Shown here: positions 1 to 22,200 of the stretch, in pieces
Layout of the letters: every line of letters begins with the position of its first letter
How positions within the stretch are numbered: position 1 is the first letter of the stretch
Source of the DNA: a virus
Reading direction: 5' to 3' (one strand)
Virus record (IMG/VR): IMGVR_UViG_3300025141_012153
Location: 1-22,934 of that record
Length of the DNA stretch: 22,934 nt
Program-made: the position numbers and the translations under genes
The notes under the pieces: generated by a model
Seen by the model: the letters and a program-made list of their open reading frames with translations, nothing else
What the model was told of the DNA's origin: nothing
Databases searched by the model: none

Positions 1-96
1 GCTGCTCCAGAAGTTGCTCCAGCGGCTGCTCCAGAAGTTGCTCCAGCGGCTGCTCCAGAAGTTGCTCCAGCGGCTGCTCCAGAAGCTGCTCCAGCG
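1..96 (+). repeat. Four tandem copies of a 24-base coding repeat
   Basis: Units at 1-24, 25-48, 49-72 and 73-96. The first three are identical; the last has GCT in place of GTT. It encodes the AAPEVAPA tail. It is a protein-coding microsatellite, and the array may continue upstream of the window. Confidence 0.95.
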
Positions 97-102
97 AGGT
101 AA
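1..102 (+). CDS. C-terminal end of an upstream gene, Ala/Pro/Glu repeat tail (partial)
   Basis: The window opens inside a gene read in frame 1 that stops at TAA 100-102. The visible 33 residues are an Ala-Pro-Glu-Val repeat of the form AAPEVAPA, four copies, ending in Ala-Arg. Tails like this are usually flexible, extended linkers; no domain is visible, so the function is unknown. The reading frame is preferred over the +2 frame (which gives Leu-Gln-Arg-Leu repeats) because the stop sits just before the ATG of the next gene and overlaps its ribosome binding region. The acidic EEVA repeat inside the giant protein downstream has a similar style. Confidence 0.7.
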   Translation, partial: AAPEVAPAAAPEVAPAAAPEVAPAAAPEAAPAR

Positions 103-106
103 ATAT

Positions 107-874
107 ATGAAGATATCTAAATTACTTAAATCTGTATATGATATAGCAATAGCAAATAATCTATCTGTGCCATATATAGTTGGAGGAATTCCTAGAGATC
201 TTATAATGGGAAATGAAAATAGCATAGAGGATATAGACGTTACTACTGGCGATTCTGGCTCTTTGAATTTAGCTCACTTATGTCATAAACAATGGCCAGA
301 AACATTTTTTAAAGAATTTGATGATGGTCATGCTTCTATTAATTTTAAAAATATAAAATTAGATTTTAGCAGCAATTTTATTGCTCCAGATATTGAAAAA
401 AAGATGGCAGAGATAGGTATAAGTAGTCCAACAGATTTACAGAAAGAAATATATTCAAGAGATTTTACCATTAACACTTTATTAAAACCGATGGATGATT
501 TAAATAAAGATATTATAGATATTACTGGAAAGGGAATTGACGATTGTAAAAATAAAATATTGCGTGGCCCCATAAGTGGTGAATTTTCTTTCATAAATCA
601 TTCTAATAGAATTGTTAGAGCTATAAGATTGTCTGTTAAGATGGATTTGAAATTTAGCAAAGAGCTAGGAGAATCTATCAGAAGGCTAAAGAATCTTTTA
701 ATAGATGTGTCTGATGGTTACATAAATAGAGAAATAAACAGGGCATTGCGCGAGGATACGACAAAAACGGTAGCAATCTTAGTAAACTATAAATTGTTAC
801 CTATAATGCCTTTATCTAAAATGCTAACAATGGAATTAGCAAAGCAGAGAATGGTTCAACATATATTAGATTAA
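107..874 (+). CDS. tRNA nucleotidyltransferase / poly(A) polymerase family protein
   Basis: This 255-residue protein belongs to the class II nucleotidyltransferase superfamily, which adds nucleotides (CCA or poly-A) to RNA 3' ends using two metal-binding aspartates. Seen: GGIPRD at residues 26-31 (the GGxxRD signature), the catalytic pair D42-x-D44 in EDIDVTT, SRDFTINTLL (the RRDFTINA-type motif), and a RIVRAIRLS segment matching the RxxRAxRF neck motif. It is short for a CCA-adding enzyme and lacks an obvious C-terminal body/tail. The start is ATG 107, with GAGG at 95-98 overlapping the end of the upstream gene. An in-frame ATG at 14 would only add residues from the repeat of the upstream gene read out of frame. 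Substrate is unknown; phage tRNA repair is possible. Confidence 0.8.
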   Translation: MKISKLLKSVYDIAIANNLSVPYIVGGIPRDLIMGNENSIEDIDVTTGDSGSLNLAHLCHKQWPETFFKEFDDGHASINFKNIKLDFSSNFIAPDIEKKMAEIGISSPTDLQKEIYSRDFTINTLLKPMDDLNKDIIDITGKGIDDCKNKILRGPISGEFSFINHSNRIVRAIRLSVKMDLKFSKELGESIRRLKNLLIDVSDGYINREINRALREDTTKTVAILVNYKLLPIMPLSKMLTMELAKQRMVQHILD

Positions 875-3492: not shown

Positions 3493-4716
3493 ATGAGTCA
3501 TAGAGAATATGAATATATGAAACCTTCAAGAATGCCAGATTGGATGAAGGATTTTGCCGATAAAGAGGCACTTGGAAAAAAAGAGGGAAATTATATTGAT
3601 CACATAAATCAAGTTTTACATCCCGAGTCATCTTTTACTTCTGTTGAGGCAATGGTTAGTGACTTGCGTGAGCGTGTTGGTCTTGATATGCTAACTAAAG
3701 AGGCTAGTCGAAATTGGGTTGATGATTATTTTAAAAAATGGCCTGAAATGAAAATAAGGGCAAAGAAATATGCCGAAGCTATTGGAGAACCTTATGATAG
3801 ATATATCGGTCGTCACAAAAGAACATCTTCTAGATTGGGAAGAAAAATATTAAATTCTCAGATTGGATATCCAGGAATTCCATGGACGCCACCAAAAAAA
3901 TTAAAACCGGGAGAATGTGAAACAATAGAAGGTCCAGGATTTTCCAATACAAGATGCCGCCCAGGAAAGAAAAAACAAAAAGAAGCGATAGATCTCGCTC
4001 CTTTTAGAGCCTTATTAAATAAAGGAACAAAATTAGATGAGTATCTATTAAAAGACTATGAAAAATTGACTTGGGTTGTTTTCTATGCAAATAAAGATAT
4101 AAAAACGGCCAACAAGACATTAAATTATCTAAGGAAAATCTGGGATGAAAATGAAAAACGAGATAAAACTGGTAAGGCTGTAGTTGATAGAGTATTGTTG
4201 TTGATGGCCAGAAAAGTATATGAAAAAATGAATAAAAAAACATCATTAATTAACAATTTAGTAAAAATGTCTAACAAATTGGATATTGAGGGGAAACACA
4301 AAGAAGCTGCTGCAATAGATAGAAAAATTTTAGCATTGGCAAAAGAGTCTAAAGAAAAAGAGTCTAAGGAAAAAGAGTCTAAAGAAAAAGAGTCTAAGGA
4401 ATCTAAAGAGGGCGGATTAGAGGGAATACTTGACGATCCCCAATTTCGCGACTTTGTACAATTTATTGATAGGGTTGTTGAGGGGCGTGGAGGGAATATA
4501 ACATCGATGTCTTTAGAAGCCATGATGGAAAATGAGATGGGCGCTGATATGAGCAATTCAAAATTAAAGGATTATATTGGCAAAAAAATACAAGAAGTTA
4601 GAGATAGTTCCCCTAAGGTAGATGAGGCTGGCGGATTTTTTGGTGCTGATATTCAAGAGGCTGACAAGGAAGCTAATAGCCAAATGTTTGATATGCCAGA
4701 AAGTAATATGAGTTAG
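3493..4716 (+). CDS. Unknown 407-residue protein with internal tag and KES repeat
   Basis: Not recognised. RBS AGGAG at 3482-3486. The first 245 residues form one helical, basic unit (two Cys at 142 and 155 with a Pro/Gly-rich loop between). Residues 252-283 contain an internal copy of the tag seen at the start of neighbouring genes (LVKMSNKLDIEGKHKEAAAID). A Lys-Glu-Ser repeat (residues about 285-306) and a separate acidic C-terminal unit (about 308-407) follow. The tag thus sits at a junction, as if two proteins had been fused or as if the protein is cut there. It lies two genes upstream of terL; a small terminase or scaffold-like role is possible by position only. Confidence 0.75.
   Translation: MSHREYEYMKPSRMPDWMKDFADKEALGKKEGNYIDHINQVLHPESSFTSVEAMVSDLRERVGLDMLTKEASRNWVDDYFKKWPEMKIRAKKYAEAIGEPYDRYIGRHKRTSSRLGRKILNSQIGYPGIPWTPPKKLKPGECETIEGPGFSNTRCRPGKKKQKEAIDLAPFRALLNKGTKLDEYLLKDYEKLTWVVFYANKDIKTANKTLNYLRKIWDENEKRDKTGKAVVDRVLLLMARKVYEKMNKKTSLINNLVKMSNKLDIEGKHKEAAAIDRKILALAKESKEKESKEKESKEKESKESKEGGLEGILDDPQFRDFVQFIDRVVEGRGGNITSMSLEAMMENEMGADMSNSKLKDYIGKKIQEVRDSSPKVDEAGGFFGADIQEADKEANSQMFDMPESNMS
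4246..4341 (+). other. Internal copy of the LANKLD tag
   Basis: Codes for residues 252-283 of the 3493-4716 protein. The pattern hydrophobic-hydrophobic-x-x-(L/M)-(A/S)-N-K-L-D-I-x-G-x-K-K/H-K-E-(S/A) is shared with the N-termini at 4726, 9650 and 10686, but the DNA has diverged, so this copy is old. Confidence 0.7.
4345..4410 (+). repeat. 15-base repeat coding for Glu-Ser-Lys-Glu-Lys
   Basis: Nearly four copies of GAGTCTAA(A/G)GAAAAA, alternating A and G at one third-codon position, so an effective 30-base higher-order unit. It codes for a charged, probably helical or disordered linker just after the internal tag. Confidence 0.9.
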
Positions 4717-4725
4717 GAGATTATT

Positions 4726-4812
4726 ATGATATTACAATTAATTAAATTAGCTAATAAATTGGACATATTAGGTTATAAAAAAGAATCTAATTTTATAGAC
4801 ATATTAATAAAG
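4726..4812 (+). repeat. Dispersed tag repeat, copy 1
   Basis: The first roughly 72 bases of this gene match the starts of the genes at 9650 and 10686 almost base for base, including third codon positions. A 54-base stretch from 4741 is identical to the copy at 9650. Similarity drops after about 87 bases. Confidence 0.9.
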
Positions 4813-5712
4813 AAAGCGTTAGACCCTCAAGTTAAGAAACTAATAGATTCAGGCCAGGGATACACTTATGGCTGTCCGAGTTGTAATAAAGAAGTGGATA
4901 TTGATGAGAAAGTATTTTCTATGTTTATGCCCCCTAATATGACCTGTCCTAGCTGTAACGAAGAATTTTCACCGCATGATGCTGGAGCGGCTAGATCTAC
5001 AAATGCTGGAGAGTTTCCTCAAAATGATCCTAAAGGCGGTGATTTTGGGAAACACTCTTTAAAAGAGAATGAGCGAGGAGTCTGGGTTCTTTACCAGAGG
5101 GGAAAGCCAATATTGGCATTTGATGGGAAGCCCAATGCTCAAACCTTTTTAAGACAATGGAAAAATGGAGCTTGGTATGATCCCACTTATTTTTATGGGG
5201 TAGGTTTACCAGCAGATCATGATCAAAAACAGGCTGACGCTCTTGGAATAAGTCTTGAAGCATATCAGGATGAATGGGAAGACCACACTCCCTCTTCAGA
5301 GGTGCTTGATTCTATAATACAGGGGTCTAAAATGGACTTGTGGAGTCCTAGTGAGGATCTGTTAGATGATTCTGGTGTGGAGGTAGAGAGCGAGGCCGCT
5401 CAATATATTGGGTCTGGTTCTAACATTTTAAAAGAAATAGTTGATAAGACTTCAAAAATTTTGCCACTGTCTGGGGCTACAAAATTAAAACCGGGGTCCG
5501 TTGTTCAACATGGTGAGCAACCAAAAGAAAAACATTATGATAGTATAATAGATCAATTAGAAAACATTCCCGATGATGGTGATGGGCAAGAGGAAGAAGA
5601 TAGCATTTTGGCTGAATATTCTGAAGCAATTACCAGAAGAGTCGTGAAAAACCGGCAAGCAAAGAAAAATAATGTAGATCCTGATACCCTTGCTGATGAT
5701 ACGAGGTGGTAA
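4726..5712 (+). CDS. Tagged zinc-ribbon protein, paralog 1
   Basis: 328 residues, RBS AGGAGA at 4715-4720 overlapping the previous stop. Order: helical tag (residues 1-30); zinc ribbon with C50-x2-C53 and C74-x2-C77 flanking IDEKVFSMFMPP; a W120-to-A138 block (WVLYQRGKPILAFDGKPNA) that may be a small beta domain; a long acidic middle; and a conserved tail NNVDPDTLADDTRW. It is a full-length paralog of 10686-11681: the ribbon, the W120 block, a TSxIxP...SVVxHGExPK block and the tail all align in the same order. The terminal Trp codon and stop abut the GTG start of terL, so the two are translationally linked. Function unknown; an accessory packaging or DNA-end-binding protein is an inference. 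Confidence 0.85.
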   Translation: MILQLIKLANKLDILGYKKESNFIDILIKKALDPQVKKLIDSGQGYTYGCPSCNKEVDIDEKVFSMFMPPNMTCPSCNEEFSPHDAGAARSTNAGEFPQNDPKGGDFGKHSLKENERGVWVLYQRGKPILAFDGKPNAQTFLRQWKNGAWYDPTYFYGVGLPADHDQKQADALGISLEAYQDEWEDHTPSSEVLDSIIQGSKMDLWSPSEDLLDDSGVEVESEAAQYIGSGSNILKEIVDKTSKILPLSGATKLKPGSVVQHGEQPKEKHYDSIIDQLENIPDDGDGQEEEDSILAEYSEAITRRVVKNRQAKKNNVDPDTLADDTRW

Positions 5713-7554
5713 GTGCCAACAATCTCCTCAAAAAAAGAAAGCTTTGATTGGCTTAAAAAAGAAGTTCTCAAAGTAGATCCCGTTTCTTTTTCAGAAAACT
5801 ATCTAACTATTGAAAATCGTGAGTTCAAGATAACTGATAATGGTTGGAAATTCATGGCTGATTTATATAGACATATTATATATAAAGCTATGTCAGATGA
5901 TGGAAAACCAATTGTTATTGTTAAGGGTCGTCAGGTTGCCGCTACCACAATGGCTACTAATTTGGGTTGTTATTTAATGGGCTCAGGCAATTATGGACTT
6001 GGCAAAAGATCTCCCATCTCATTACTTCATGCATTTCCTCAGCTTGAACTTATGTATGACTATGCAAAAGATAAGTTAGAAAAAACAATTCGTAATTCTA
6101 CCCCTATCGACCATCCTACAAAAGCGGGTAAAGTTTTAGGTTATATGGAATGGATGAAAGATTCTGCGCGTGACGCAACGGACAGCCTAACATTTAAACA
6201 ATTTAAGGATGGAAACTCCTGGTGGTGTAATTCGATTGGAAATGAGGGAACAAGAGTATTAGGGCGTCGTTTTGATGGCATCTTTTTTGATGAAGTCCAG
6301 AAAATGACTGAAAAGGCTGTTGGCATTGCAAAAAAGTGTTTAACATGGTCGCAGTATGGCCCAGTTGGTGAAGGATTTCAAGTATACTTTGGAACACCAA
6401 GACATAAAAATTCATACTTTCATAAAATTTGGGAAAAATCTGACAAGCGATATTTCTTTTTGGGCTGTTGCGCTTGTAATGAGTTTTTTGAATTATATAA
6501 TTCAAAAGATACTGGAGCTTGGGAAGAAGTATGGCTTTATGATATGGTTGTTAAATGTTCTCATTGCGGTGAGGAACAGAATAAGTTAGAGGCTATTGAT
6601 AGGGGAAAATGGATTCCGACAGTGGCAGATCCAGAGAATTGTAAATATACTGGCTTTCATTTTAATCAATTATATATTCCAATTTTTACAAAAGAGACTG
6701 TCCTAAAAGAAAAACCGGAAAATTCCGCAGAGAATTCTGAAGTTACTTATATGAATGAAGTTTTAGGAGAATTTTATTCTGGAGAAGGTCTACCAATTAC
6801 TTTTGATGAAATTTATACTACTTGCAGAGATCCAGATAGACTTTGGACACACCCAAAACATATTATAACGAAAAGAAAATCTGTAGAAGATAAGACATTA
6901 TTTTTAGGGTTTGACTGGGGCGGGAAGCCAGATATAGCTGGAGCGACAAGGGGTCAATCTTTTTCTGTCATGACGGCACTTGCCGTAGAACATGATGGCC
7001 TATATCCTATTGAATATGCTACAAAACTCAAAAAACTTAAGATAGATGATAAAATTAAATTTGTTGAAGAAATGTTTAGATTATATCGTCCAAGATTGGC
7101 AATGGGTGATATTGGTTACGCTGAAGACTTATCTATGGAATTAAAATCTATTTTTGGTGACAAATATCAAACAGTGCGAAATGCCGCTTCTGTTGCTCAT
7201 GGTGTTAAATATCATGCTGACGAGCTAGAAGTTGTAGTTGACAAGGACAAATGGTTAGGCGAGATGTTTGATAATTTTAGGCGTGGTAAGTTTCGGATTC
7301 CTTGGGGAAGTTATGAGCAATTAGCTTGGTTTGTTGAGCATTGTTGCTCTATGGAATCCAAAACTGTTATAAGAGGCGGTGTTCCATATCAAATGTTTAT
7401 TAAGGGTAAGGAGCCAAATGACGGGTTAATGTCATTACTTTGTGCCTATGTGGCTTATAAGTTTAATAAAACACATGCTTTTAAATTAAATCCAAATTCT
7501 GTAAGTACTAATAGTTTAAAACCAATTCTGGCATATATCCCTAAAATGCGGTAA
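5713..7554 (+). CDS. terL: Terminase large subunit (DNA-packaging ATPase/nuclease)
   Basis: 613 residues. It is the motor that cuts concatemeric phage DNA and pumps it through the portal into the prohead. Seen: a deviant Walker A VKGRQVAATTM (70-80); Walker B GIFFDE with D193/E194; a coupling motif FGTPRHKNSYF (from about 226); a zinc-ribbon-like insert C252/C255 with C282/C285; and an RNase H-like nuclease with D401 (FDWGG), D466 (MGDIGY) and D570 (PNDGL). The zinc insert between ATPase and nuclease recalls the lambda gpA group. The start is GTG 5713, touching the upstream TAA, with GAGG at 5703-5706; the first in-frame ATG would remove about 47 residues. Standard Gly-Lys of Walker A is replaced by Ala-Ala; K71 or R73 may substitute, as in lambda gpA. 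Confidence 0.93.
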   Translation: MPTISSKKESFDWLKKEVLKVDPVSFSENYLTIENREFKITDNGWKFMADLYRHIIYKAMSDDGKPIVIVKGRQVAATTMATNLGCYLMGSGNYGLGKRSPISLLHAFPQLELMYDYAKDKLEKTIRNSTPIDHPTKAGKVLGYMEWMKDSARDATDSLTFKQFKDGNSWWCNSIGNEGTRVLGRRFDGIFFDEVQKMTEKAVGIAKKCLTWSQYGPVGEGFQVYFGTPRHKNSYFHKIWEKSDKRYFFLGCCACNEFFELYNSKDTGAWEEVWLYDMVVKCSHCGEEQNKLEAIDRGKWIPTVADPENCKYTGFHFNQLYIPIFTKETVLKEKPENSAENSEVTYMNEVLGEFYSGEGLPITFDEIYTTCRDPDRLWTHPKHIITKRKSVEDKTLFLGFDWGGKPDIAGATRGQSFSVMTALAVEHDGLYPIEYATKLKKLKIDDKIKFVEEMFRLYRPRLAMGDIGYAEDLSMELKSIFGDKYQTVRNAASVAHGVKYHADELEVVVDKDKWLGEMFDNFRRGKFRIPWGSYEQLAWFVEHCCSMESKTVIRGGVPYQMFIKGKEPNDGLMSLLCAYVAYKFNKTHAFKLNPNSVSTNSLKPILAYIPKMR

Positions 7555-7558
7555 AAGA

Positions 7559-7651
7559 ATGATGTTATATTTAAATCAACTAATAAAAAGGTATCTAGTG
7601 GTAAAGACTATCTATAATTTGAGAGTGCCTCAATTATTTGGATTGAAGTAA
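7559..7651 (+). pseudogene. Probable decayed copy of the tag sequence (30-codon open frame)
   Basis: The gap between terL and the portal gene holds a 30-codon frame beginning MMLYLNQLIKR. Its DNA start ATGATGTTATATTTAA matches the 9650 tag (ATGATATTATATTTAA) at 15 of 16 bases. Further matching blocks (CTAATAAA, then ATCTATAATTTGAGA against ATCTAATTTTGTAGA) continue with small gaps that shift the frame. There is no good ribosome binding site. I read it as a relic of a tagged gene start or a copy lost from the portal gene; chance similarity in A+T-rich DNA is the alternative. Confidence 0.4.
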
Positions 7652-7660
7652 GGAGAAAAC

Positions 7661-9634
7661 ATGAGAAGAGGAACAAGAGACGTTAATAAGAATGTAGAAT
7701 TGGGTAAAATGAGTGTTAGTCCTAAAGCATCTAGACAATTGTCTGATGTTAGAAAACAAATGCTCAATAAAGACATTGAAAAAGGTTTAATAGCTGAAGG
7801 TGGCAATAATTATAATGGCAGCACTTTAAAAAAAGGTGTCCCTGATGCTAAAACAACAAATATGGATTTACCCGATATCGGTCGTGGTGACTGGAATGAG
7901 CAACATAGCAGTCAATCTGTATCTAGAGGTTCTGGCAATGCTGCCAATTATTTAGGAAAAACATCACAAGCTGCTATTGCCCATAGCCTTTCATTCAGAA
8001 AACAAGCTTCTATTTCCTCTACATCTAATTCTGCCGGATATTCTGGTGGCACACAAACTGACAGATTAGCTCCAGAAGTTTATTCTCCATTATTTACAAT
8101 GGCAAATCTTAATTTGCCAAGAGACAGAATTACTATAAATACATGGAATAGAAATTTTTATGATTTACATCCAATTGTTAGAAATTGTATTACATTACAC
8201 GCAACTTATCCCATATCTAAATTAAATATTAGATGTTCTGATCCAAAAGTTGAGCAATTTTTTAGTGATATGGTAGAAGAAATGGATCTCCTAGGAACTC
8301 TGGGAGAGCTATCACTTGAGTTCTGGAAACTTGGAGAGGTGATCCCATATGCTGTTTTAGACGAAGCAGAAAAAAAATGGAAAAGAATAAATATTCTTAA
8401 TCCTGATTTTGTTCATGTCAAGAAAGCAGCCATCGGCGGTTATCCAATCATTTCTTTAAGACCTGACGAAGCCCTCAAGAGATTGGTTATGAGTGGTCAT
8501 CCAGCAGACCAACATATTAGGTCACAAATTCCAGAAGAAATTGTACATCATGTTAGAAAGGGACAAAACATACCTTTGGACAATTTTAACACTTCTCATT
8601 TAAAAATGCTTTCAAGCCCTTATGATATTCGTGGAACATCTGTTATAGTTTCATGTTTTAAGGATTTAATGCTTTATGATAAGTTAAGAGAAGCTAAATT
8701 TGCTCAGGCAGATGGTCTTATAAATCCAATAACTTTAGTAAAAGTTGGCGGAACTGGTGAGGGCGATGCGCGAATGCATCCAGAAGATCTAGAAGAGTGG
8801 CGTCAGATTATGGAAGAGGCGCAGTATGATAAGGATTTTAAAATTATTACACATGCTGGTGTTGCCATTGAGAGAGTTGGGGCAAATGGAGGGATTATTG
8901 ATGTTGCTGGTGATATTGAACTTATTGTTAAAAATATATATACTGGATTAATGGTTCCTCAAGCTGTAGTAGATACTGAGAGTTCTGCTTATTCTTCTGC
9001 CTCTATTGGTTTGGAAGTATTAAGGCAGAGATATTTTAATTTTAGAAATTTAATAGCTAAGTGGTTAGTGAATAAAATTTTTGCTCCTATAAGCAAAATG
9101 AGAGGATTTTTTGAGTATAAGGACGGAGAGAAAAAACTTATAGTTCCTGAGATTGAGTGGAATCATATGAATCTGTATGATTTAAGTGACTATCTACAAT
9201 CGACAACTGGTCTTCTTTCCACACAGCAGTGTTCATTACAAACTGTGTATAGAAGTCTTGGATTAAATTATGAGGAAGAGAGGAGAAAGCAGAGAGAGGA
9301 ATCTATTAATCTAGCTATTAAGCAGCGAGAAGAGCAAGCATTGGCAAGATATGGTTTGGAAGAACTCAGATCTCTTGATCCTTCTAAGGAAATACAGGAT
9401 CCTCCAGAGGGTGAGAGAGCAGATGGTGGCGCAGCCGCTGGTGCCGGTGCAGATGCTGGTATGGGCGGTGACATGGGCGGTATGGGCGACATGGGCGGTA
9501 TGGGCGGTATGGGCGACATGGGCGGTATGGGCGGTGGTGAATTGGCTCCTCCACCAGCAGGTGAACTTGGTGGGGGTGCAGGTGGTGGCGGTATGACGCC
9601 TGACATGGGCCCAGGTGCTGGTCCACCTATGTAA
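7661..9634 (+). CDS. Portal protein
   Basis: 657 residues. The portal dodecamer forms the DNA gate at one head vertex and docks the terminase. After a low-complexity Ser/Gly/Asn N-terminus of about 140 residues, the sequence shows the portal-type entry PLFTMANLNLPRDRITINTW and FYDLHPIVRNCI, then the alpha/beta body with LEFWKLGEVIPYAVLD. The late segment GLMVPQAVVDTESSAYSSAS (about residue 427 on) leads to a long helix with RYFNFRNLIAKWLV, typical of portal stem/wing regions. The C-terminus has a charged coiled coil followed by a Gly/Met/Asp repeat and Pro/Gly tail. RBS TAAGGAG at 7649-7655. The position right after terL supports the call. Portal assignment is by overall pattern and context, not a catalytic motif. 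Confidence 0.85.
   Translation: MRRGTRDVNKNVELGKMSVSPKASRQLSDVRKQMLNKDIEKGLIAEGGNNYNGSTLKKGVPDAKTTNMDLPDIGRGDWNEQHSSQSVSRGSGNAANYLGKTSQAAIAHSLSFRKQASISSTSNSAGYSGGTQTDRLAPEVYSPLFTMANLNLPRDRITINTWNRNFYDLHPIVRNCITLHATYPISKLNIRCSDPKVEQFFSDMVEEMDLLGTLGELSLEFWKLGEVIPYAVLDEAEKKWKRINILNPDFVHVKKAAIGGYPIISLRPDEALKRLVMSGHPADQHIRSQIPEEIVHHVRKGQNIPLDNFNTSHLKMLSSPYDIRGTSVIVSCFKDLMLYDKLREAKFAQADGLINPITLVKVGGTGEGDARMHPEDLEEWRQIMEEAQYDKDFKIITHAGVAIERVGANGGIIDVAGDIELIVKNIYTGLMVPQAVVDTESSAYSSASIGLEVLRQRYFNFRNLIAKWLVNKIFAPISKMRGFFEYKDGEKKLIVPEIEWNHMNLYDLSDYLQSTTGLLSTQQCSLQTVYRSLGLNYEEERRKQREESINLAIKQREEQALARYGLEELRSLDPSKEIQDPPEGERADGGAAAGAGADAGMGGDMGGMGDMGGMGGMGDMGGMGGGELAPPPAGELGGGAGGGGMTPDMGPGAGPPM
9457..9537 (+). 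repeat. Gly-Gly-Met / Gly-Asp-Met coding repeat in the portal tail
   Basis: Reiterated GGCGGTATG and GGCGACATG triplet-of-codon units encode GMGGDMGGMGDMGGMGG. The G+C content is well above the surroundings. Out-of-frame readings give Trp-Ala-Val or Pro-Tyr-Arg repeats, which are artefacts. Confidence 0.9.
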
Positions 9635-9649
9635 TTAAGGAGATGATAA

Positions 9650-9736
9650 ATGATATTATATTTAATTAAATTAGCTAATAAATTGGACATATTAGGTTAT
9701 AAAAAAGAATCTAATTTTGTAGATAAATTAATAAAA
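9650..9736 (+). repeat. Dispersed tag repeat, copy 2
   Basis: About 70 of the first 72 bases match the copy at 4726. The coding sequence diverges sharply right after the tag. Confidence 0.9.
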
Positions 9737-10465
9737 CACTCCATAAGCAGAGAGGAGTGGGATGCGGCATTAAAGCCAGAAGTTACGACATATGATCCCT
9801 ATAGAGAACTTAGTAAAGCTCCGAATACTTTTAGCACTGTTGAGAAAAATGTTGAAGATATAACTGACGAGCCTATAAAAATTCAAGAAGAGGAAGACGA
9901 TCAGTCTCTTTGGATTTTATGGATAATGGGCGAACCCATGTATGCTATTAGAGGAAAGTCTAATGCGCTCAGTCAAATGCAAAATATAAAGTCTGCGCCC
10001 GAAAGTGCAGGCGATTATTTATTTTATGGTCGCGCATTTGCTCAGAGCAATTATCGAGGATCTATTCCAGGTGGAAGTCATGATGTAGAAAAATATTTAG
10101 ATGAAGAATTTGGCGGCACAAAAGATTCTCACGAAGAAAGAGCGAAGGTGGTGCTTTCTTATTCTGTTGGGACAAGCAAATTACCTATTTCTAAGAATAT
10201 AGATATGGATGATACTTCCATAATAGAACCCAATGAATCTGTTGATGAAAATAGAGAAGTGTGTCTGTCTTTTGAAGAAGAACAATATTTAAACGAGAAT
10301 CTTGAAAACTGGATTGGGGAAGGTGAGGGACAGCATGCATATCTTACTGATATAGTTGAACCATTTGAGGAAAAATGTAAAAAGTTAAAAGAAATTTTTG
10401 ATAAGATTCGCAAATCTGGCAAAAATCCAAAAACAATGCCTGAATGGAAAAATAGGATTTGGTGA
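9650..10465 (+). CDS. Tagged protein, diverged paralog lacking the zinc ribbon
   Basis: 271 residues, RBS AAGGAG at 9637-9642. It starts with the same 30-residue helical tag as 4726 and 10686, nearly identical in DNA. It then lacks the Cys ribbon but keeps the Trp block at residues 88-106 (WILWIMGEPMYAIRGKSNA), matching WVLYxxGxPxxAxxGKxNA in the other two. The rest is acidic and helical, and the end PEWKNRIW echoes the terminal KIW/TRW of the paralogs. Its stop overlaps the next start (TGATG). I infer a family expanded around terL and portal, with this member having lost the metal site. Function unknown. Confidence 0.8.
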   Translation: MILYLIKLANKLDILGYKKESNFVDKLIKHSISREEWDAALKPEVTTYDPYRELSKAPNTFSTVEKNVEDITDEPIKIQEEEDDQSLWILWIMGEPMYAIRGKSNALSQMQNIKSAPESAGDYLFYGRAFAQSNYRGSIPGGSHDVEKYLDEEFGGTKDSHEERAKVVLSYSVGTSKLPISKNIDMDDTSIIEPNESVDENREVCLSFEEEQYLNENLENWIGEGEGQHAYLTDIVEPFEEKCKKLKEIFDKIRKSGKNPKTMPEWKNRIW

Positions 10466-10689
10466 TGAGTTTAGAATTAAATAAAGAATATAAAGAAAAG
10501 CGGAGACAATTATATCAAATGGCGGGAAATCCTGGGGCTTTAAAATCTATGGATTTTAAATTAAATCAAGAATATAAGCAAGTTCTTGCCGATTTCAATC
10601 AATTATCTGCTAAATTATTTCTATTAAAGAAACTTTGTGGTGAAACTGGGAGATTGGTTAGACAATCTACCAAAGGGAGTAAAAGATGA
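10465..10689 (+). CDS. Small helical charged protein, 74 residues
   Basis: Begins at ATG 10465, which overlaps the upstream TGA (TGATG); TTG 10459 and GTG 10462 are in frame just before it but less likely. It ends with ATGA overlapping the next gene. The product (MSLELNKEYKEKRRQLYQMA... to KGSKR) is a basic helical hairpin: a repeated LNKEYKEKRRQL / LNQEYKQVLADF pattern suggests two similar helices. It sits between two tagged paralogs and is translationally coupled to both. No known family recognised. Confidence 0.75.
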   Translation: MSLELNKEYKEKRRQLYQMAGNPGALKSMDFKLNQEYKQVLADFNQLSAKLFLLKKLCGETGRLVRQSTKGSKR

Positions 10690-10772
10690 TATTATATTTA
10701 ATTAAATTGGCTAATAAATTGGACATTTTAGGTTATAAAAAAGAATCTAGATTTGTAGATAAGCTAATTAAG
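10686..10772 (+). repeat. Dispersed tag repeat, copy 3
   Basis: Matches the copies at 4726 and 9650 closely, with a handful of mostly third-position differences. Confidence 0.9.
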
Positions 10773-11681
10773 GAATCTATAGATCCTGGAGTAAAGAAGC
10801 TTGTTGACTCAGAACAAGGATGGACATATGGTTGTCCCAATCCGAGCTGTAATAAGCCTGTAGAAATAGATGAGAAAGTATTCTCTATGTTTATACCTCC
10901 CAAAATGACATGTCCTAACTGTAATGAAAAATTTTCACCACATGATGTAGGAGCAACACGGTCTATTTCTGGTGCTGGAGAAATAGAAGGAATACACGAA
11001 GATCCTGGAAAATATTCTTTAAAGGAAGATGAGCGAGGAGTGTGGGTACTATATTGTCATGGACAACCTTGGATGGCCATCGAAGGAAAAGCAAATGCTG
11101 AACGATATTTGAGAAGATGGGTGGCAGGAGATTTTCGAGATATTATGGAAAATGCAGAATTCTGGCAATATGAAAGGCATACGGAGAAAGGGGTTGATAT
11201 TACGCCATTCAGTAGAAATCTGGAAAAAAAAATGATGGACTACCCTCTAAAACTTTTGGATAACTATTTAGACTATGTATATGAGGGTGCTCCTGAGGCA
11301 GTTGGAGAAAAAGAGGCTGAAGAAAATCGACGGGCAAGAATAGAAGAAGATAGATTTGTTAAAAGACGCATTGGAAATATAAAAAAACTTGTAGAAGAAA
11401 GTGTTAGAAGAACTTCTGAAATTCGGCCTCAAGCAGATGAAAATGTAAACTCTAGTTCTGTCATTCCCCATGGAGAATTTCCAAAAAAAGAGAGGATTGT
11501 AAAATTTTTAGATGATAACGCTCCTCCGCTCCCTGATTCACATTGGGAGCCAGAAGACCCAAATTATGGAGGCATTGATCATGAAATATATGAGCAGCTG
11601 CATGAAGATTTGGAAACGAGAAGACGGGCAAGAGATGATGGCGTGAATCCTGAAGATTTAGCTGACGATAAAATTTGGTAG
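10686..11681 (+). CDS. Tagged zinc-ribbon protein, paralog 2
   Basis: 331 residues, start overlapping the previous stop (ATGA), RBS GGGAG about 8 bases upstream. Same order as the 4726 protein: tag (1-30), zinc ribbon with C50-x4-C55 and C76-x2-C79 around IDEKVFSMF, the Trp block at exactly residues 120-138 (WVLYCHGQPWMAIEGKANA), a charged middle, SSVIPHGEFPK, and the tail DGVNPEDLADDKIW. The first knuckle is CPNPSC rather than CPSC, a two-residue insertion. The middle (about 150-260) is more basic and helical than in paralog 1. Strong conservation of ribbon, block and tail against a drifting middle suggests those parts make the functional contacts. Function unknown. Confidence 0.85.
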   Translation: MILYLIKLANKLDILGYKKESRFVDKLIKESIDPGVKKLVDSEQGWTYGCPNPSCNKPVEIDEKVFSMFIPPKMTCPNCNEKFSPHDVGATRSISGAGEIEGIHEDPGKYSLKEDERGVWVLYCHGQPWMAIEGKANAERYLRRWVAGDFRDIMENAEFWQYERHTEKGVDITPFSRNLEKKMMDYPLKLLDNYLDYVYEGAPEAVGEKEAEENRRARIEEDRFVKRRIGNIKKLVEESVRRTSEIRPQADENVNSSSVIPHGEFPKKERIVKFLDDNAPPLPDSHWEPEDPNYGGIDHEIYEQLHEDLETRRRARDDGVNPEDLADDKIW

Positions 11682-11694
11682 GAGATAAAAAATA

Positions 11695-13188
11695 ATGCTT
11701 ACAATAAAACAAGCTGGACAGTTTTCAGATATTTTAAAAGAACATAAATTATATAAGGATGCTAATCAAGTAGACAAATATATACTTTTAGCAAGTGCTT
11801 CACCTATAGAGAAACATGCTGGCCTTTGGGACTGGGTAGGGGGAAAGTTGTCTGGCTGGAGCAAGCGTATATTTTTCAAAAATTTTCGGCAAGCGTATTC
11901 TTTGGCGCAAGATATTCAAAAAGAGTTGGACAAACAAATGGATGCTGTTGAGGAGCAACATAAGCAAACACATATGTATTTAAATAGACATGATCTTACA
12001 AATTGGCAAAGAACAATTTCAGAATTGGCTGTAAATGTAACTCCCACAGATACGCTTTCTAATCTTCAAGAAAGATATAATGACTCTTTACAAGAAATGA
12101 ATCGTGGCATTGGATTATTAAGTAATAAACAACAAGAAGAATTAAGAGAAGAGCAAAAGAAGCAGCGGGAAGAAAGAGAGCAAGCTTCAGGAACCCCACC
12201 TTCAGAGGCCCCATCTTCAGAGGCCCCAGATGTGGATGCGCCCAATGATGTTGAGACAGAAGAAGAACAAGCAAATATTAGAAATCCTGAAGAATTAAGT
12301 TCCTACCAGCAATATAGATCTATAAAATATGATGCTCCCGCGCACATTTTACGATGGTTAAATGATTTGGGATATCTTGAGTGGGCAAGAACTAGCACTT
12401 TTTACAATCCAGAATTTGGAGGAAAAAATCAAATAGTCATTCCGGAACCATTATTAAAACGTCATGTGGATCTTGGACAGTTTGACGTAAAAAGAAATCC
12501 TGATGAGAAAGTTTATTATAAAGTTATACAGGAAGAACATACTTCATTGCCAAGTGAATGGAGTAGAACTTTTGCTAGCCCAGAGATGATTGATAGGTGT
12601 TGGGTTGCTGAAGAAAGTATTTCAGCTCCAGATGGTGTGACTTGGTGGATACTTGGCAGTGTAGATCCTAAAATTTTAGATTTATATAACGTCAACCTTA
12701 AACCAAAACTCCCATTCTTAGATGATTTAATAAGGTCTCCAAATACAGATAAATATAATTTTTATGTTGCGAAAGATCAAAATGATAATACTATATATCT
12801 ACCACTAAGAGAGGCCATGGAGGGAGTCCAAGAAAAATTTATTACAGATATACGAGAAGCTGGTACAATATTTTTTGGAAAATTAGATTTAGAGCAAGCT
12901 CCTAGCGAATGGACACATACTTTATCATACGGCAGGGGAGAAGGACAACAATTACGTTTTGATACTAGGCCAGAAGGAATAACCCCTGATACTTGGGTAA
13001 AAATTACTAAAATTGGAACAACAGAAAGAGATAGAGAATTGAGGGGTGGTGGAAAAGCACCTCTTGAAGAAGTTGATACTACTCAAGATTTAAGTCCAGA
13101 AGATATAAATACTGGCGATCCTGATCAGCAAACAAGGGCGGCGCTTAAGAGAGTTGATAAAATTATTGCTTTAGCCATGATGACATAG
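11695..13188 (+). CDS. Unknown 497-residue protein with tag-like ends
   Basis: RBS AGGAGA at 11680-11685. The N-terminus FSDILKEHKLYKDANQVDKYILLAS follows the same helix-turn-helix pattern as the LANKLD tag (L-x-K...L-Y-K-x-A-x-x-V-D), although diverged. Next comes a long coiled coil (about residues 65-165), a Pro/Ser/Glu-rich linker with two PSSEAP-type repeats (about 165-200), then a folded alpha/beta domain rich in Trp (about 205-450). It ends in RVDKIIALAMMT, again tag-like. No enzyme motif is seen. By position, between the portal-associated cluster and the giant gene, it may be a virion or head-assembly protein. Confidence 0.75.
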   Translation: MLTIKQAGQFSDILKEHKLYKDANQVDKYILLASASPIEKHAGLWDWVGGKLSGWSKRIFFKNFRQAYSLAQDIQKELDKQMDAVEEQHKQTHMYLNRHDLTNWQRTISELAVNVTPTDTLSNLQERYNDSLQEMNRGIGLLSNKQQEELREEQKKQREEREQASGTPPSEAPSSEAPDVDAPNDVETEEEQANIRNPEELSSYQQYRSIKYDAPAHILRWLNDLGYLEWARTSTFYNPEFGGKNQIVIPEPLLKRHVDLGQFDVKRNPDEKVYYKVIQEEHTSLPSEWSRTFASPEMIDRCWVAEESISAPDGVTWWILGSVDPKILDLYNVNLKPKLPFLDDLIRSPNTDKYNFYVAKDQNDNTIYLPLREAMEGVQEKFITDIREAGTIFFGKLDLEQAPSEWTHTLSYGRGEGQQLRFDTRPEGITPDTWVKITKIGTTERDRELRGGGKAPLEEVDTTQDLSPEDINTGDPDQQTRAALKRVDKIIALAMMT

Positions 13189-13247
13189 GTGATTGAATAA
13201 TTTATTTTGGATGCCCAGAGATTATTATATAAAAAAACAAATTGCCT

Positions 13248-13252
13248 AAGGA
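13248..13252 (+). promoter_or_regulatory. Ribosome binding site of the giant gene
   Basis: AAGGA lies 7 bases before ATG 13260 and fixes the start. The 71-base gap before it contains TATATAA-like sequence (13226-13232) that could be part of a promoter, but no complete promoter is recognised. Confidence 0.6.
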
Positions 13253-13259
13253 TATTGCC

Positions 13260-16200
13260 ATGAGTAAATTTCGCACTAACATTAGAAATTTAAAAACAAC
13301 TGCCGACTTAAATATTGATCAAATTATTAATTTAATTCAAAAAAAGAAAGCGCCAGCGGAAGTTGCGCCAACGCCAACGGAAGTAAGTAACGGCATATTA
13401 AAGCCACTTCCTTTAGTTGACACAAAAAAAGCATATGACATTATTATTGGCCTTGAAACTGGTGGCAAATATGCTACCGGAGATATTGGCACTGGATATG
13501 GTCTTGTTGGAAATCAGCTTTCTGCTTTTGCTAGACATTTATCAAAAGACCCCCAAGTTGAAAAGTTAACTGGGATAACGCCTTCTGAATATAAAAAGAT
13601 AGGTAAGGCCCATGGTGACGCTTGTCGTGCATTAAGGAAAATTGACTATTGGAAAGAAATTCCCGTTGATCAAAAAACAATCGAAGAATATTTTAAAAAG
13701 AATCCTAGGAAATATAGGCGCAAGGTTCTCAAATATACTTTGCCGAGTGGTGAAGCGATTATCGTAAAGAAAAAAAATGGCAAATGGAATGGTTTTGGAA
13801 TTAACTATCAAAGTTTAGATGGATTTATGAAGGTAACTCCAGAAGCGAAGGAAAAAATAAATAAGATTGTAAGCAAATATATTACTGGTAATGTAAATTT
13901 AAGTGCTATTGCAAAATTGAAAGCTTATCAAGACAACAAAGAATTATATGATAAATTTGATGCGATATTTGCTGATGTAAAAGGTGTAAGAAAGAGTAAG
14001 CCGCTTAATGCGTTGTGTGAAAGGATGGCTCAAAGAGATTTCTTTGGAAGAATAAATTCTGCAGTAAAAATGGTTCAAAAATACGGATATGATGTTTCTA
14101 ATCCGAAAGCTTATAATATTTATCAATTAATTGCTATCGCTAATTCTAGTGGCCTAGGAAGATTAAGTCGTTTTCTAAAAAATCGACAAACATTTTCTAT
14201 GGCACACTTATATTATCTCAAAAGAGCCAATACAGCTATACAAAAGGCTACAGGAATATCTACACAAATGCCGCCTGATGGAGGAATTGCTGGGTTCCAA
14301 ACAAAAACTGCTATGATATCTAAAAGAGCTACTGTCAAGAAGACAATACCATTCCCGCAAGATTATGCCGAATCTATTCAGAATGGTAATAGAACTTTCA
14401 CTATTAGGCTTGAAGATTATGGAGTTGTGCCGGGTGATACTATAGAGGCTCGTACAGAGGCTGGTGCTCATTTTTGTGATTTAGTAATAGAAGATGTTAA
14501 AAAAATGACTCCATATAAGATAGGTAAGGATATTAGCGCACCATTAGGGTTAGATTTGGAAGAAAAGTTTAAATTTAATGAGGAAGTAGAAAATTTTATT
14601 GTTATTAAGTTTTATAATCCAAATATTAAGCTTGCATCGAATATTAAAAAAACCGCCGGTCAGGTTTATGATGATGATGGAAAAATATATGAAATTGATA
14701 AGCTTATTGAGCTAACTAAAGACACTAAAATCAAAACAGAAAAAATACAAAAGCTTAAGAAAAATCTAAAAGATAAAATGTGGACTGATTCTAAAGATAA
14801 TAAAATTTCTTTACAAGATGTTTTAGACAATAAGTCCAAATATAAAAAAGAATCTGCTAGAATTAAAAAAGTGGATTTTGATCATCCTATTTTAATTTGG
14901 AAAGATAATGTTGTTGATGGCAATCACCGCTTGGCAAAAGCTTTTGATGAAGAAAAAGAAACAATTGATGTTAAATATGTTACCGATAAACAGATGGAAG
15001 AATGTTTGTGGAAAAAAATAGATTTTCCGAAATGTGAATATGGTAGTATAAAAAAGGATCTTAAAGCAAGAAATTTTGTATTTACAACTCGTGTTCAAGA
15101 TGAAAGGGGAAAGTATGAAAAAGGTGATTTATTAGAATCTCCATTTGGTGACTTAGTAGTTGAGGAAGTAGATCAATATGATAAGATAGAAGACCATCCT
15201 TATCTAGATCAATTGAGTGAAAAGAATAAGAAAGATATCGGAAACCATAAGTATGATTACATAAAGCTTAAAAAAGCATTTAGAAAGCGTGAAATTCAGA
15301 AGCTGGCAAAAAAAGATAAATATGAAATATTTATAGAACATCTTCTTGATATATTAAATGATGTTGGTGTATCAAAGTCAGAAGTAATTATAGGTGGAAG
15401 CGGTATTCTTGGAGCATTGGGTTTGAAATCTGTTGGGGATTTAGATATTACTGTTCCTGATATAAAAGCATGGGAAAAAATATCAAATCATCCTCAGGGC
15501 ATCGTAGATGAGCTTCGTCCTGGAAATCCAAGAGTTCGGTTTGATTTTCCAGAAGGCGAATTGGAAATATTTACCGGCCCTTGGAAAGTTGGTGATAAAG
15601 ATTTTACAGAAAATATGTTGCTAACAGACATAAAGGGCATTCGTCATTGGAGTCCAGAACACACTTTAGAGTGGAAGCAAATGATGAATAGGCCAAAAGA
15701 TCAGAGTGATATCGATTTGCTCAGGACATTTCAAAAAGAGTCTAGGTTCGACATAATTCAAAAATTGGCAGAAGAAAATATAAATTTGAAATCACCAGAT
15801 CTCGTAAATACAATTGACAGTATCATTGATGCGCTTGATCCAGAAGTTACTATAGATGCGAACATTAGATATAATCAACTTTTGGAATTGTCGGTCGAAG
15901 CAGATATATATAAATTTTTAGAGTTTTCTGGAATAACAGATGGCTTGCCGGGCGGGACAAAAATATATATGCCTGGCAGTAAAATGATGCTTAGTCTGCC
16001 CATTAATCAAAATAATCTTGGCATTCCTCCTTCCATAATTCAAAAAGCTACACAAAATATTAATAATGCTGTTATTAATTCAGATCAGGAGGAGATAGAG
16101 AAAAAAATTTGGGCCAGAGTTTGGAATTTGGCCATATTAGGTTATGGTGCGACGACTAAGCAATATGCTTTTTCTTTTAGCAATTTCACTTTTAAAGATA

Positions 16201-19200
16201 AGGATAAAATATTATTTCCAGAAGAGCCTTCAGTTCTATCACTGTCTGAAGTTAATATACCAGAGGAAAATAAGAAGCAGTTTACAGATAACATATCAAA
16301 AGTTTTGGGATATGGCGAAGAATTTACAGATTTTCGCATATCAATAGAAGAAGGTGAAGTTGAATTACATTGTATCCCAGAAAGAGAACCGGCTACTTAT
16401 GTTGACTTAGAGGGTCAAAAAAGTGACGTTATTGAGCAAAAGAAAAAGCATACTGGAGAAATTGGATTTAATAAAGAAAAAATGGATTCTTTGTTAAACG
16501 AAACATATGCTTATTATAAAAATTTTGATTATGATGAATATACTGCTCATCCTATTGATGATGGACATCCTTCATGTTTAATAAGTGATATTTGGTCTGA
16601 TCCATATGGGGCGGGAGGAAAATTTTTTGATCCAAATACTAAATTATCTTTGGTGTTTTCCGACAGAGTAGATGAGTTAAGTTATGAGGCAGTATATGAA
16701 CAAAAAAAAGACTTAGTTATTATTTATATTCCAGAAGATAGTCCTATTGATTGGCGAAGAGTAACACATGTAATTGAACATGAATTAATTCATAGTGGGC
16801 AGGTAGACTTAGGTACATACATTAGTTCAGATCAAAATTTTTTATTATATTTATTAAATAGAAGTGAGATAGATGCTAGGTGGGGAGAAATTCTTTTTTC
16901 TCTAAGAAAATTTGGTCCGTCAGGAGAATATTATAAATTACTTAATTCTGAAAGAAGGCGCATGACAAGAACAGAAAAGAGTAAATTTGATGCCGCTATC
17001 AAAAAATTACGGCAAGCATATTCGAACATTATTTTAGAAACTATAAATGAAGGACATAATTCTATTGATATGGTACATAAGGCTCTTGGAGGGAAGTTTT
17101 CCAAAGAAGCTATTCAAAAATATTTTGAAGAGTTGGACTATTATGGTAAAACTTTTAAAGCGGCAAGACTTAGCAAAATAGTAAGTTTGTCTAAAAATGC
17201 TTCTGAGAGAGATAGTTTTAAAATATTATATCACATAGGTAAAAGACCCGCCACTCCTCAACCTTATAGGCACAATTTAGAAAAGGGGAGAATTAGGCAT
17301 GTTAAGGAAGATGGAAAATGGGCAGAAAAACAATATGATACTGCCGCATTTCTTACTGATGATTGGGTAAAAGTATGGCGTAATCATGGGATAAGAGGAA
17401 ATATTTATATTTATAGAATACCAATGGCTTTAATTAAAGAAGCTGGTGGAATTACTGAATATGATTGGGCACCTGAAATTGTCATTGACGGAGACTTATG
17501 GAATAAATATCAGAATAAAATAAAATTGATTGGCTCTATTGATGAAGATAAGGCGGAAGAAGAGGCCAGAAGTAATGAAGCGGATTGGAGACTTATTCCT
17601 GGAACTAAAGATGAGCCTCCTATTATATTTCCTGAAAATGTTAAAGACGCTGCGGTTTCTAGATATAGTGTAATTAAGAAATTGGCAAAAGATTTTGTAT
17701 TATATCATTATGCCCCAAGAGAATTTGGGGAAGAAATAGAAAAAAATGGATTGAAAACTCCTTATTCGTTAGTTAAAAGCAAGCATAAGGAAGAATTTAT
17801 AGAGAAGTATCGTGAAAGAGCTTCTATAGCATTAGACAAGCCCGAGGCAGAAGTTACAACAAGTGATGTTTTAAAAAGTCTTGAAATAAGAAGAAATACA
17901 ATGTTTGATGGCGAAGGGGGTTCACGGGCATTATCTGCATTCTTAGAACCAATTCCCAACGTAAAAGGAATGAATAAAGATATTAAGAAATTTATGGAAG
18001 AAGAAGATTTATATGAAATAAATTTTAATTCAGCTATTAGAGATGGTGTAATAGAAAAAGCTGCTATTGTGGAAGAAAAACCTCGCAGTGAGCGTCCCGT
18101 AGAATTAGAAGATTTAGAACAAGAATTGTTTGATTCCAAAATAGAAGATCGACAATGGGAAGAAAAGGGCAAGTTTTATTTTTCTGGAAAAGCACACGCT
18201 ATGCTCGTATTAAAAGATGGTATTTTGCCAAGCAAATACATAGAAAAAATAACAGAACAGAGTCTTGATGACATTTATCGTACTCGCTCTGAAGGTAATT
18301 TATATGGAGATGATGACGAGGAGCTTCCCTCTGGTGATAGTGGATGTATAACAAATCCTCGCCCAATGATATTTGCTCCAGCAGAAAAAAAGATGCTAGA
18401 AAGAATTTGGGCATTTGGAGAGCTATGTAAGTTTGCCGCTGACGGAGAAGATGATGAAAATCCAGAAAAAACCAATGAAGAGGAAGTTGCTGAGGAAGTT
18501 GCTGAGGAAGTTGCTGAGGAAGTTGTAGAAGCTCCAAAATTTGTATCTCCAATGGGAAGAAAAGTTCAAGAGTGGATCCCAACTGAGCCGCCAAAAAATC
18601 ATACTGAAGAGGAAGAATTTGCTGAAGAAGAGGAAGAATTTGCTGAAGAAGAGGAAGAATTTGCTGAAGAAGAGGAAGAATTTGCTGAAGAAGAGGAGGA
18701 AGGCGAAGAAGAAGATAATGGTGACGATGATGAAACCTATTATGTAGATTATGCTGACTTAGGTGGATTTATGGAAATAGATATGAGTGATGAGGATCCT
18801 GCTGAAGACCCTGATTATGAAAGTAAGTTGGAAGAACTCACTGTGCTATCACCAACTCTAGAAAGTAATGATTGGCCGGAATCTGAAAGAAAAAAATATT
18901 ATATAGCAATAGAGGAAATCCGCAAAGAACATCCGGGTGCTATTGGCGGGTTTGCTCCTCTTGCTGGAAAAAAGGGTATGAAGTTTATTATAACTCCCCC
19001 TCCCGAAGCAAAAACAATAGATGATGCTCTTCTTTCGCAAATAGCTAAGAAGCCTAAATATTCTCAAAATGAAATGGGATTTATAGCTTCAGTATTTACT
19101 CAGGAAAATTTATCTACAATACGTGGGATAGACGACATTTTTTCTTCCTTACGAGGCTTAAATGATTTTAGCAAACACTTGAAAAAAAATCCTAATTTTA

Positions 19201-22200
19201 TATCAAATGTAGTCTATCCTGAGATTGCCAATAAGGTTTTTCCAAGAGTATTTAAGCATCTCACAAGATATATTTATTATGAGGGTGGGACAAGTGAAAA
19301 GAATGTCCGAAAACTTTTTATCCGTGGTATTCCGATAGAGAAAGAAAACATTATGACAGGCAAAATTGTCAATGTGGCATTAATGAAATATGCTCAAGAA
19401 GAATTGTGTAAAATTATTAAAGTATATTTAGAAAGTTCCACTGTAGAGATAAGAAAACAGCCAATTATAAGATATTGCATATCAGCTTGTATTAATAATA
19501 TAAAAAATCATTTAGTAAAAGAATATTTATCTGCCGCTTCTGGAAGAATGTATAAAAAGGAAGTTCGACCAGCCTGTATGAATTGTAAAGTCAATGGTGC
19601 AAAGATGGCCGCTTTATATAATATTACAGATGCAGGTTTTTATAAACCACTAACTAGGTCTGGAGACAAAAGATCTCATTATAAATATTCTTGTCCAAAT
19701 TGTGAAAAGTGGCAAGAAAAATTAATGGAAGAATCTGCAAAACACAAGAAAACGGCACTAGATGCGAAAAGACAATTCGATATAACTAAAGCTCCGGAAT
19801 TTTTAAGAGTTGCTCAAGAATCATTAGATGAGGCGAATACAATAGCCGCTAAGGCTACAAATCTTGATGTATTTATTAATCCATCACGAGCCCACATGGC
19901 ATGTCCTAATAGAGATTGTCCTGGTGGGATGAAGCATCCTAGCGGCAAGATGATAAGTAAGTTTCCATTAAATAGTATTGATTGGGAAAATAAATGGTGG
20001 GATAATATTTCTGGGCAACAAAAAATGAATATTTTAAGAAAACTTGCTATTCATTATAGAATATATCCTCCTGAGACCTTTAATAGTTTAGATTCGCCTA
20101 TTGTTTCAACTATACCAAGTTATAAATATATTTCAGAAACTCCCAAGTGGCTAGCGTTTGTCCCATTCCATTGTCCATTTTGTAAAACAACATTTCAGCC
20201 ACAAGAAGTTTCCGGACAAAATGGTGGTTGGGCGGGATTAATTGTGCCTCCTAGACTTTTGGACTGGGTAGATAGTATTTTGCTTGACTCCGCAGATAAA
20301 GAAAGTACTCCCGATCTATTAGAAGAGGGATCTGGGGGAGAGGATGAGGGGGAAATTGCTGAAGTTAAAGAATTTGACGATTGGACAAATGTTAAAGATC
20401 CGGAGCAAGAAGAAGAATATGAGGTAGAAGAGGGAGTAGAGGCGTCAGGAATGGGGGAAATAGAAGAAATGCAGGCAGATATTCTACAGCTTGTGGATAT
20501 TATTAGACTTGAATTTGTAAGATTGATGCTTATTTGGAAAAAAGACTTCATGCTAGGAATGAAGTCTTCCAGACGATTTAAGGGGAAGAAATTATCAGAT
20601 AAGGAATCCATTATTAATGCGTTCGATAAAAGAATGGAAATAGTAGAATATATTATAGCTAAAATGAAATATGATCCAGAATTTGGTAGAGACATTCTTA
20701 AGAGTTATGTTAATGTAACGCAGTATGATGGTATAAAAATTTTAGAAAGATATAATGCTCATCTTAAATTAAAAAGAAGAGAGCTTGGATTTTATAAGCC
20801 CTATGAACATCAAGATATAATTCGTTGTAAAAAAGAAATTGTAGCACTTCAAAGAAAAAAAGAGGGTGTTAAGGAAAAAATCGCCTCTTTTGCGAAGTCT
20901 AAAAAAATTATTGGTGCTGGAATGTCTCGCCTTATTCCAGATGTGATTCAGGAAAAAATACAAATAGATTTGAGAGAAATTAGGGAAGATTTGGGAGAAA
21001 ATGCTTCTCTTGAGGAATATTGTAAAATACTGACTGAAGATTGGGGAACTATTGCTGGTGAAAATTTACGAGGCTTATTTCCAAATGTTAGGTTAGATCA
21101 TAAATTCAAACCATATTTTGGCATGATGTGTGAAGTGAAGGAAGGTGGAATAATAGTATTACCCAAACAATTTCGTAAAAATGAAAATTTATTGATTGGT
21201 GATGTATTATTTTTACAGAATGTTAGTGAAAGACAGCAGTTCACTTTCTCTTTTGACTTAAATAAGTTCCCGAGTAGTAAAATTAGTTCTAACTACCTTA
21301 TATTGCATGACATAAAGGAGAAGGGATCTTCTGTAACTCACAAAGATATTAAATTAAAATTAGATATGATTAAAAAAGATTTTAATATTGATTTAGGGAA
21401 ACCAAAGACTTATGTTTATTTGGCCGCTTTTGTAATAAATAGAAAAGAAACTATGCAGGATACTATATATAAATTATATGGGATTGACCCTCGCAGAAAA
21501 ACACGCCCCGAGATTTCTATCAAATTATTAGAAAGTTTCAAAGAAGGCGGATTAAATAAAGATCATGGCAGCACTGAAATTTTAAATAACTGGGAAAATA
21601 TGCTTAAGGTTTCTGGATATAGTTCTTCTGGGTTACGAGAAAGAGCTAATATTATAGACGATACACATGAAATGTATTTTTCTGAGATGGGGCCAAAACT
21701 TGCTTCTCTTAAAGAGTACAAAAATAAAAGAAATTTTAATGAGACATCTGAGCCAAAAGGCAAAAAGGGAAATGGCGCAAATAAATATCGATTTGTAATA
21801 CAAGATCATGATGCCGAAAAAGCTGGTCGCCATTTTGATTTACGTTTAGAAAACGACAGTGGTTCCCTCTCTTCTTGGGCAATACCAAAACATAAATTGC
21901 CTAGCGGAAAAGCAAAACTTTTAGCAGTAAAAACAGAAGATCATCCTTTAGAATATCGTTCGTTTCAGGGAGAAATTGAAAATGGATATGGCAAAGGTCA
22001 TATGACAATTCATGATTCTGGAACATATGAAGAAATTGAGTCTAAATCGGATAGTGTTATTTTCAAATTAAATGGAAAAAAAGAAAAGGGATCCTATACA
22101 TTATTTAATACTGAAGACAAACAATGGTTAATAATGAAACATAATGAAAAGAAAGGGGTTGCAAGAATTGATAAAATAAAAAAACTTGCTGAAAATTCTA

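Follow-up and report, generated by a model that had tools for sequence, protein, structure and literature searches.

Several proteins encoded in a 22.9 kb virus record, the whole of which we refer to as the window, carry one and the same short segment, and this locus raises the question of what such a segment (the tag) does and how it came to be joined to its different carriers. The initial annotation had described it as a mobile N-terminal tag on unrelated proteins, and had proposed that it serves either in capsid targeting, with removal by a prohead protease as in the T4 internal proteins, or in docking to a common partner.

Tag copies and their carriers in the window

The ORFs that begin at positions 4726, 9650 and 10686 share the opening MIL(Q/Y)LIKLANKLDILGYKKES(N/R)F(I/V)D.LIK; the consensus of the tag is L-(I/V)-x-(L/I)-A-(D/N)-x-L-D-x-x-G-x-x-x-x-A-(D/N)-x-(I/V/L)-D-x-x-I. 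Across the first 29 codons, the DNA of these 3 ORFs is 86–93% identical, and in the tag pairs among them a different codon was used at only 2/26, 5/25 and 6/28 of the identical residues. Both the common opening of ~30 residues and its near-identity at silent positions were thus as first described. When the N-terminus of 4726 alone was used as query, it matched 10686, 9650 and also a stretch within the 3493 ORF (E=9e-4, residues ~252–283), where a related form had been noted; this internal tag is kept in orthologues from 2 related contigs (G001 and L010). The same query did not recover the copy at the start of 11695, which is too divergent. Orthologues of 11695 elsewhere were matched by a profile built without any member of the 11695 family (G026, E=1.6e-6; G028, E=7.8e-5), and for this reason we accept the proposed 11695 copy as a real, divergent form of the tag. 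The features of the window, all on the + strand, are as follows.

4246–4341 (+): tag copy 4, internal to the 3493 ORF (residues 252–283), from the sequence search (E=9e-4)
4726–4824 (+): tag copy 1, at the start of the 4726 ORF (residues 1–33), from the sequence search and profile matches
4825–5709 (+): body of the 4726 protein, with a zinc-ribbon-like region and a W-L-G-P-A-GK-NA segment; paralogue of the 10686 body
5713–7554 (+): terminase large subunit (TerL; GpA_ATPase, E=2e-14), anchor of the head gene block
7661–9634 (+): untagged portal protein (phrog_16240, E=1e-54), with 34% identity to the portal of Bacillus phage G
9650–9748 (+): tag copy 2, at the start of the 9650 ORF, from the sequence search and codon comparison
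9738–9865 (+): cassette immediately behind tag copy 2; strain L007, which is near-identical, has a different sequence here
10686–10784 (+): tag copy 3, at the start of the 10686 ORF, from the sequence search, codon comparison and a structural model
10785–11678 (+): body of the 10686 protein, paralogous to that of 4726
11695–11796 (+): tag copy 5, a divergent hairpin at the start of the 11695 ORF, from orthologue profile matches and a structural model
13242–22934 (+): very large multidomain ORF of >3231 aa, polyvalent-protein-like, which runs off the window
15741–15770 (+): boundary linker SRFDIIQKLA in the 13242 ORF; others lie near 17163, 17658, 22161 and 22761

With the tag removed, the bodies of 4726 and 10686, paralogues with a zinc-ribbon-like segment, are 39% identical (E=3e-59), and a 39-residue segment, W-(I/V)-L...G-x-P...A-I-x-G-K-x-N-A, is common to 9650 and 10686 (E=4e-8). 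By these alignments, 4726, 9650 and 10686 form a small family whose bodies have diverged, and the proteins of 3493 and 11695 belong to different families. For the former 3, the description as unrelated is too strong. The window contains neither a capsid gene nor a protease gene, and the nearest named relative of its portal is that of Bacillus phage G. A Lys-Glu-Ser repeat (KESKEKESKEKESKE) lies directly behind the internal tag of the 3493 ORF (window 4330–4400), and a protein with a poly(A) polymerase head domain is encoded upstream of the head genes (window 35–874), a repeat-rich stretch (LLQKLLQR) preceding. Elsewhere, the portal ORF at 3054–6209 of L010 has an intein-like insertion (start CFLSGTMVWMADG, end VHNC), and several other portal matches have unusually long spans.

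The 13242 ORF, located downstream of TerL and the portal gene, combines several distinct domains in one large chain; Pfam matches were to LigD_N (E=3e-24), to a transglutaminase-like domain (E=7e-4) and, weakly, to ASCH. HExxH-like sequences can be seen by eye in this ORF, which has no Pfam peptidase match. Linkers of the form SR(L/F/I)D.I.K(L/I/V)A occur in it and in its 4150-residue counterpart from G001, and 13 of the 28 boundaries of shared modules lie no more than 12 residues from a strict linker, where 1.5 were expected. Modules of the ORF, which has a counterpart in L014/L015, are shuffled between 2 related phages. The linker resembles helix 1 of the tag, and we considered whether linkers SR(L/F)D.I.KLA are degenerate tags. 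This idea was rejected: the linker profile overlapped tags in only 6 of its 200 top other hits, and the profile comparison establishes no relation. The tag profile gave no match to the 13242 ORF.

Shape, position and distribution of the tag

AlphaFold placed helices at residues 2–14 and 18–41 of the 10686 protein (low confidence) and at residues 4–16 and 20–34 of the 11695 protein (pLDDT ~76–84), and so, in the 2 families modelled, the tag is a predicted helix-turn-helix hairpin with a short turn. Fold searches with both models gave nothing significant.

We gathered more than 130 related loci via TerL and portal alignments, many of them from contigs of >100 kb, and searched them with an iterated tag profile at a cut-off of 8 bits, with reversed and shuffled ORFs as controls. 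Regions scoring at least 8 bits numbered 170 in real ORFs, 0–1 in reversed ORFs and 0 in shuffled ORFs. A profile built from the copies and run over related phages, the check that had been suggested, thus yielded ~80 non-redundant copies against almost empty decoys; it should be noted that the conserved columns are partly forced by the pattern used for alignment, and that very high percentages in them are partly built in. Whole-contig searches of related contigs showed up to 10 copies per contig. The tag is a lineage-wide repeat in uncultured very large bacterial viruses. One 11.3 kb contig (L131) has 7 tag matches in 6 ORFs; most of these proteins are small, N-tagged and alike in their dialect of the tag.

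Outside this group the searches were negative. Phages T4, phiKZ, G, Rctr197k and LR745208 gave zero tag matches at E<=10 with a query that finds up to 10 in related contigs; among 25 tags compared with Pfam and PHROGs, no 2 matched the same family; a PDB sequence search with the tag gave no significant match; and relatives of TerL or of the tag were not found in bacterial genomes. A literature search returned no description of this tag, which is weak evidence of novelty.

When the 80 non-redundant copies were sorted by position, 31 were N-terminal (within the first 75 residues of the frame), 12 were C-terminal (within 25 of the end) and 37 were internal (between these limits). Some proteins carry 2 tags, and there are small ORFs that consist largely of tag. 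No common motif, and no cleavage motif, was seen downstream of the hairpin in these 80 copies. The tag can also change sides within one family: in a conserved-domain family encoded upstream of TerL, it is N-terminal to the domain in most members and directly C-terminal to it in L125 (47 bits), perhaps also in L150 and L127, where scores are weak; some members have no detectable tag. The claim that the tag is mobile is supported by this change of side and by its N-terminal, C-terminal and internal positions in many non-homologous proteins; the claim that it is N-terminal is not, since internal and C-terminal copies together form the majority.

Copying of the tag and its association with head genes

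Within the window, codons for identical residues differed silently at 13/79 positions in the tags and at 104/231 in the bodies (p=4e-6), in a test whose 3 tag comparisons share sequences and are not fully independent. Between the window and its G001 orthologues the corresponding figures were 15/42 for tags and 87/212 for bodies, which is not a significant difference. Because orthologous tags diverge silently as much as bodies do, tag DNA is not specially constrained, and the silent-site data favor recent copying or gene conversion over constraint at the DNA level as the probable source of the near-identical tags; of the causes that the initial annotation had listed, strong constraint is thus the less favored.

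Exchange next to a tag can be seen directly in strain L007, in which ~130 bases immediately behind the 9650 tag are a different sequence, the tag and the remainder of the gene being essentially identical to those of the window. In the 13.6 kb that could be compared, this is the only site where one stretch replaces another; the other dense L007 differences fall in repeats, at the end of the contig and in a smaller cluster near 11500. On the other side of the tag, the similarity between 4726 and 9650-type genes continues for ~19 bases ahead of the start codon and enters the ribosome-binding region.

The capsid protein and the protease-scaffold of the lineage were located via homology to gp27 and gp19 of phage G. 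Homologues of gp19 in related contigs, outside the window, indicate that the lineage encodes a prohead protease (phrog_18299, E=2e-12; head maturation protease in PHROGs). In the 6 contigs that could be mapped, the block from TerL to capsid plus 10 kb, margins that were chosen after the hits were known, held 29 of the 36 tagged ORFs, where 9.7 were expected (p ~1e-11). Tagged ORFs outside the head block include 3 of the 4 in contig G008, several small ORFs and a tagged CCA-adding enzyme, the tRNA nucleotidyltransferase of L011 (10387–12570), whose tag is N-terminal and whose gene is distant from the head block. None of 79 capsid or protease-scaffold ORFs was tagged. A likeness of the tag to helix 1 of the capsid N-terminal extension was by eye only, had zero profile support, and was discarded.

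A further connection is provided by an AHP-x-G-G...VET...P-x-G segment, which was present in 5 protease-scaffold fusions and in 7 distinct tagged proteins, where it precedes a tag, and in no other credible ORF among the loci examined. The tagged proteins of the window lack it. By this sequence likeness, the segment ties part of the tagged set to the scaffold. ORFs in which the prohead protease is fused to a long scaffold-like region occur in L188 (4622), L199 (34), L132, L143 and L120, those of L188 and L199 having a repeated AYFQGGG..N.P segment.

Proposed function and known systems

The free position of the tag, its concentration in the head block and its absence from shell proteins suggest a docking role for accessory or cargo proteins. 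We propose, with a probability of about 0.5, that the tag is a portable docking hairpin that joins accessory proteins to a common partner in head assembly, its copies being spread by recombination. The hairpin would be active at the N-terminus, at the C-terminus or between domains, and hence would act by binding and not as an N-terminal propeptide. The partner would most likely be the scaffold of the prohead or the capsid's inner surface, and the docked proteins would be built into, or packaged in, the virion; the partner, virion entry and the fate of the tag are the parts of this model that we infer. Recombination would spread and homogenize copies within a genome, so that new bodies become joined to an existing tag. 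The earlier suggestion of docking or head targeting is in keeping with the genomic context, namely the many non-homologous head-block proteins with tags in all 3 positions. T4-like removal of the tag by the prohead protease is not supported, in view of the internal and C-terminal copies and the missing motif behind the tag, but some copies may be removed, a prohead protease being encoded in the lineage. More tentatively, the hairpin could be a position-independent two-helix code that loads many proteins, enzymes included, into the head, with cargo swapped by recombination at the tag.

Among other explanations, the main one is that the hairpin is a general clip for self-association or oligomerization among tagged proteins, with no head targeting. 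A short, repeated, position-independent helical hairpin, at times present twice per protein, and small ORFs made mostly of tag would be expected of such a clip; the clip alone leaves unexplained the concentration in the head block and the segment common to scaffold and tagged proteins, and we consider it unlikely, if worth keeping in mind. It is rather improbable that the tag is a T4-like capsid targeting propeptide cut off by the prohead protease. The lineage does encode such a protease, a cleaved N-terminal targeting peptide is common to the T4 internal proteins (PMC9026906), and 3 copies in the window are strictly N-terminal, but most copies in the lineage are not, and no conserved cleavage motif follows the tag.

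Two further proposals were weighed. If the repeat were chiefly a recombination handle for swapping variable gene parts, without a shared protein function, then the L007 cassette, replaced directly behind a tag, and the smaller number of silent differences between tags than between bodies in the window would be accounted for; conservation at the protein level in distant contigs that lack DNA similarity (some columns being partly set by the search pattern) and the ordinary silent divergence of orthologous tags make this quite improbable. Least probable is that the N-terminal copies are translation-boosting leaders copied along with a ribosome-binding site, as the shared ~19 bases upstream of 4726 and 9650-type genes could indicate, since such a role is impossible for internal and C-terminal copies.

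If the docking hairpin serves as an address tag, candidate virion cargo of uncultured phages could be listed straight from their sequences, and the head component that takes up this cargo would be indicated; many head-block proteins of huge phages have no known role, and a position-independent loading hairpin could double as a cargo tool. Even as a mere oligomerization clip, the tag would unite dozens of unknown proteins in one assembly.

Known systems resemble the tag in part. The 13242 ORF, very large, multidomain and beside the terminase and portal genes, is like the phage polyvalent proteins (PMC5512222); these, as far as the portion of that paper drawn on here describes them, share globular domains, whereas the tag is a short hairpin that recurs on separate proteins of the head block. 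In phage P1, helical parts of DarA and Hdf anchor internal proteins on the inner surface of the capsid, and the protease is believed to remove the N-terminus of DarA (PMC12810830); compared by description only, these are larger dedicated domains in 2 proteins, with no repeated hairpin. SPN3US and other phiKZ-like phages are also huge, with a prohead protease and many head proteins. According to the part of PMC10052503 used here, SPN3US propeptides have 20–254 residues and are cleaved behind AXE, and all but the one belonging to the protease are N-terminal; that part describes no shared portable hairpin. In T4, a shared N-terminal peptide of ~10 residues targets the internal proteins IPI–III to the prohead core and is cleaved during head maturation (PMC9026906). 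Because the tag is not confined to N-termini and no cleavage motif follows it, we have not classed it as a T4-type sequence, even though the lineage does have a prohead protease; in place of a short terminal peptide there is a ~30-residue hairpin at N-terminal, C-terminal or internal positions. Like the T4 capsid targeting sequence, the tag is one short element on several different head-linked proteins, and it may similarly bring cargo into the prohead core.
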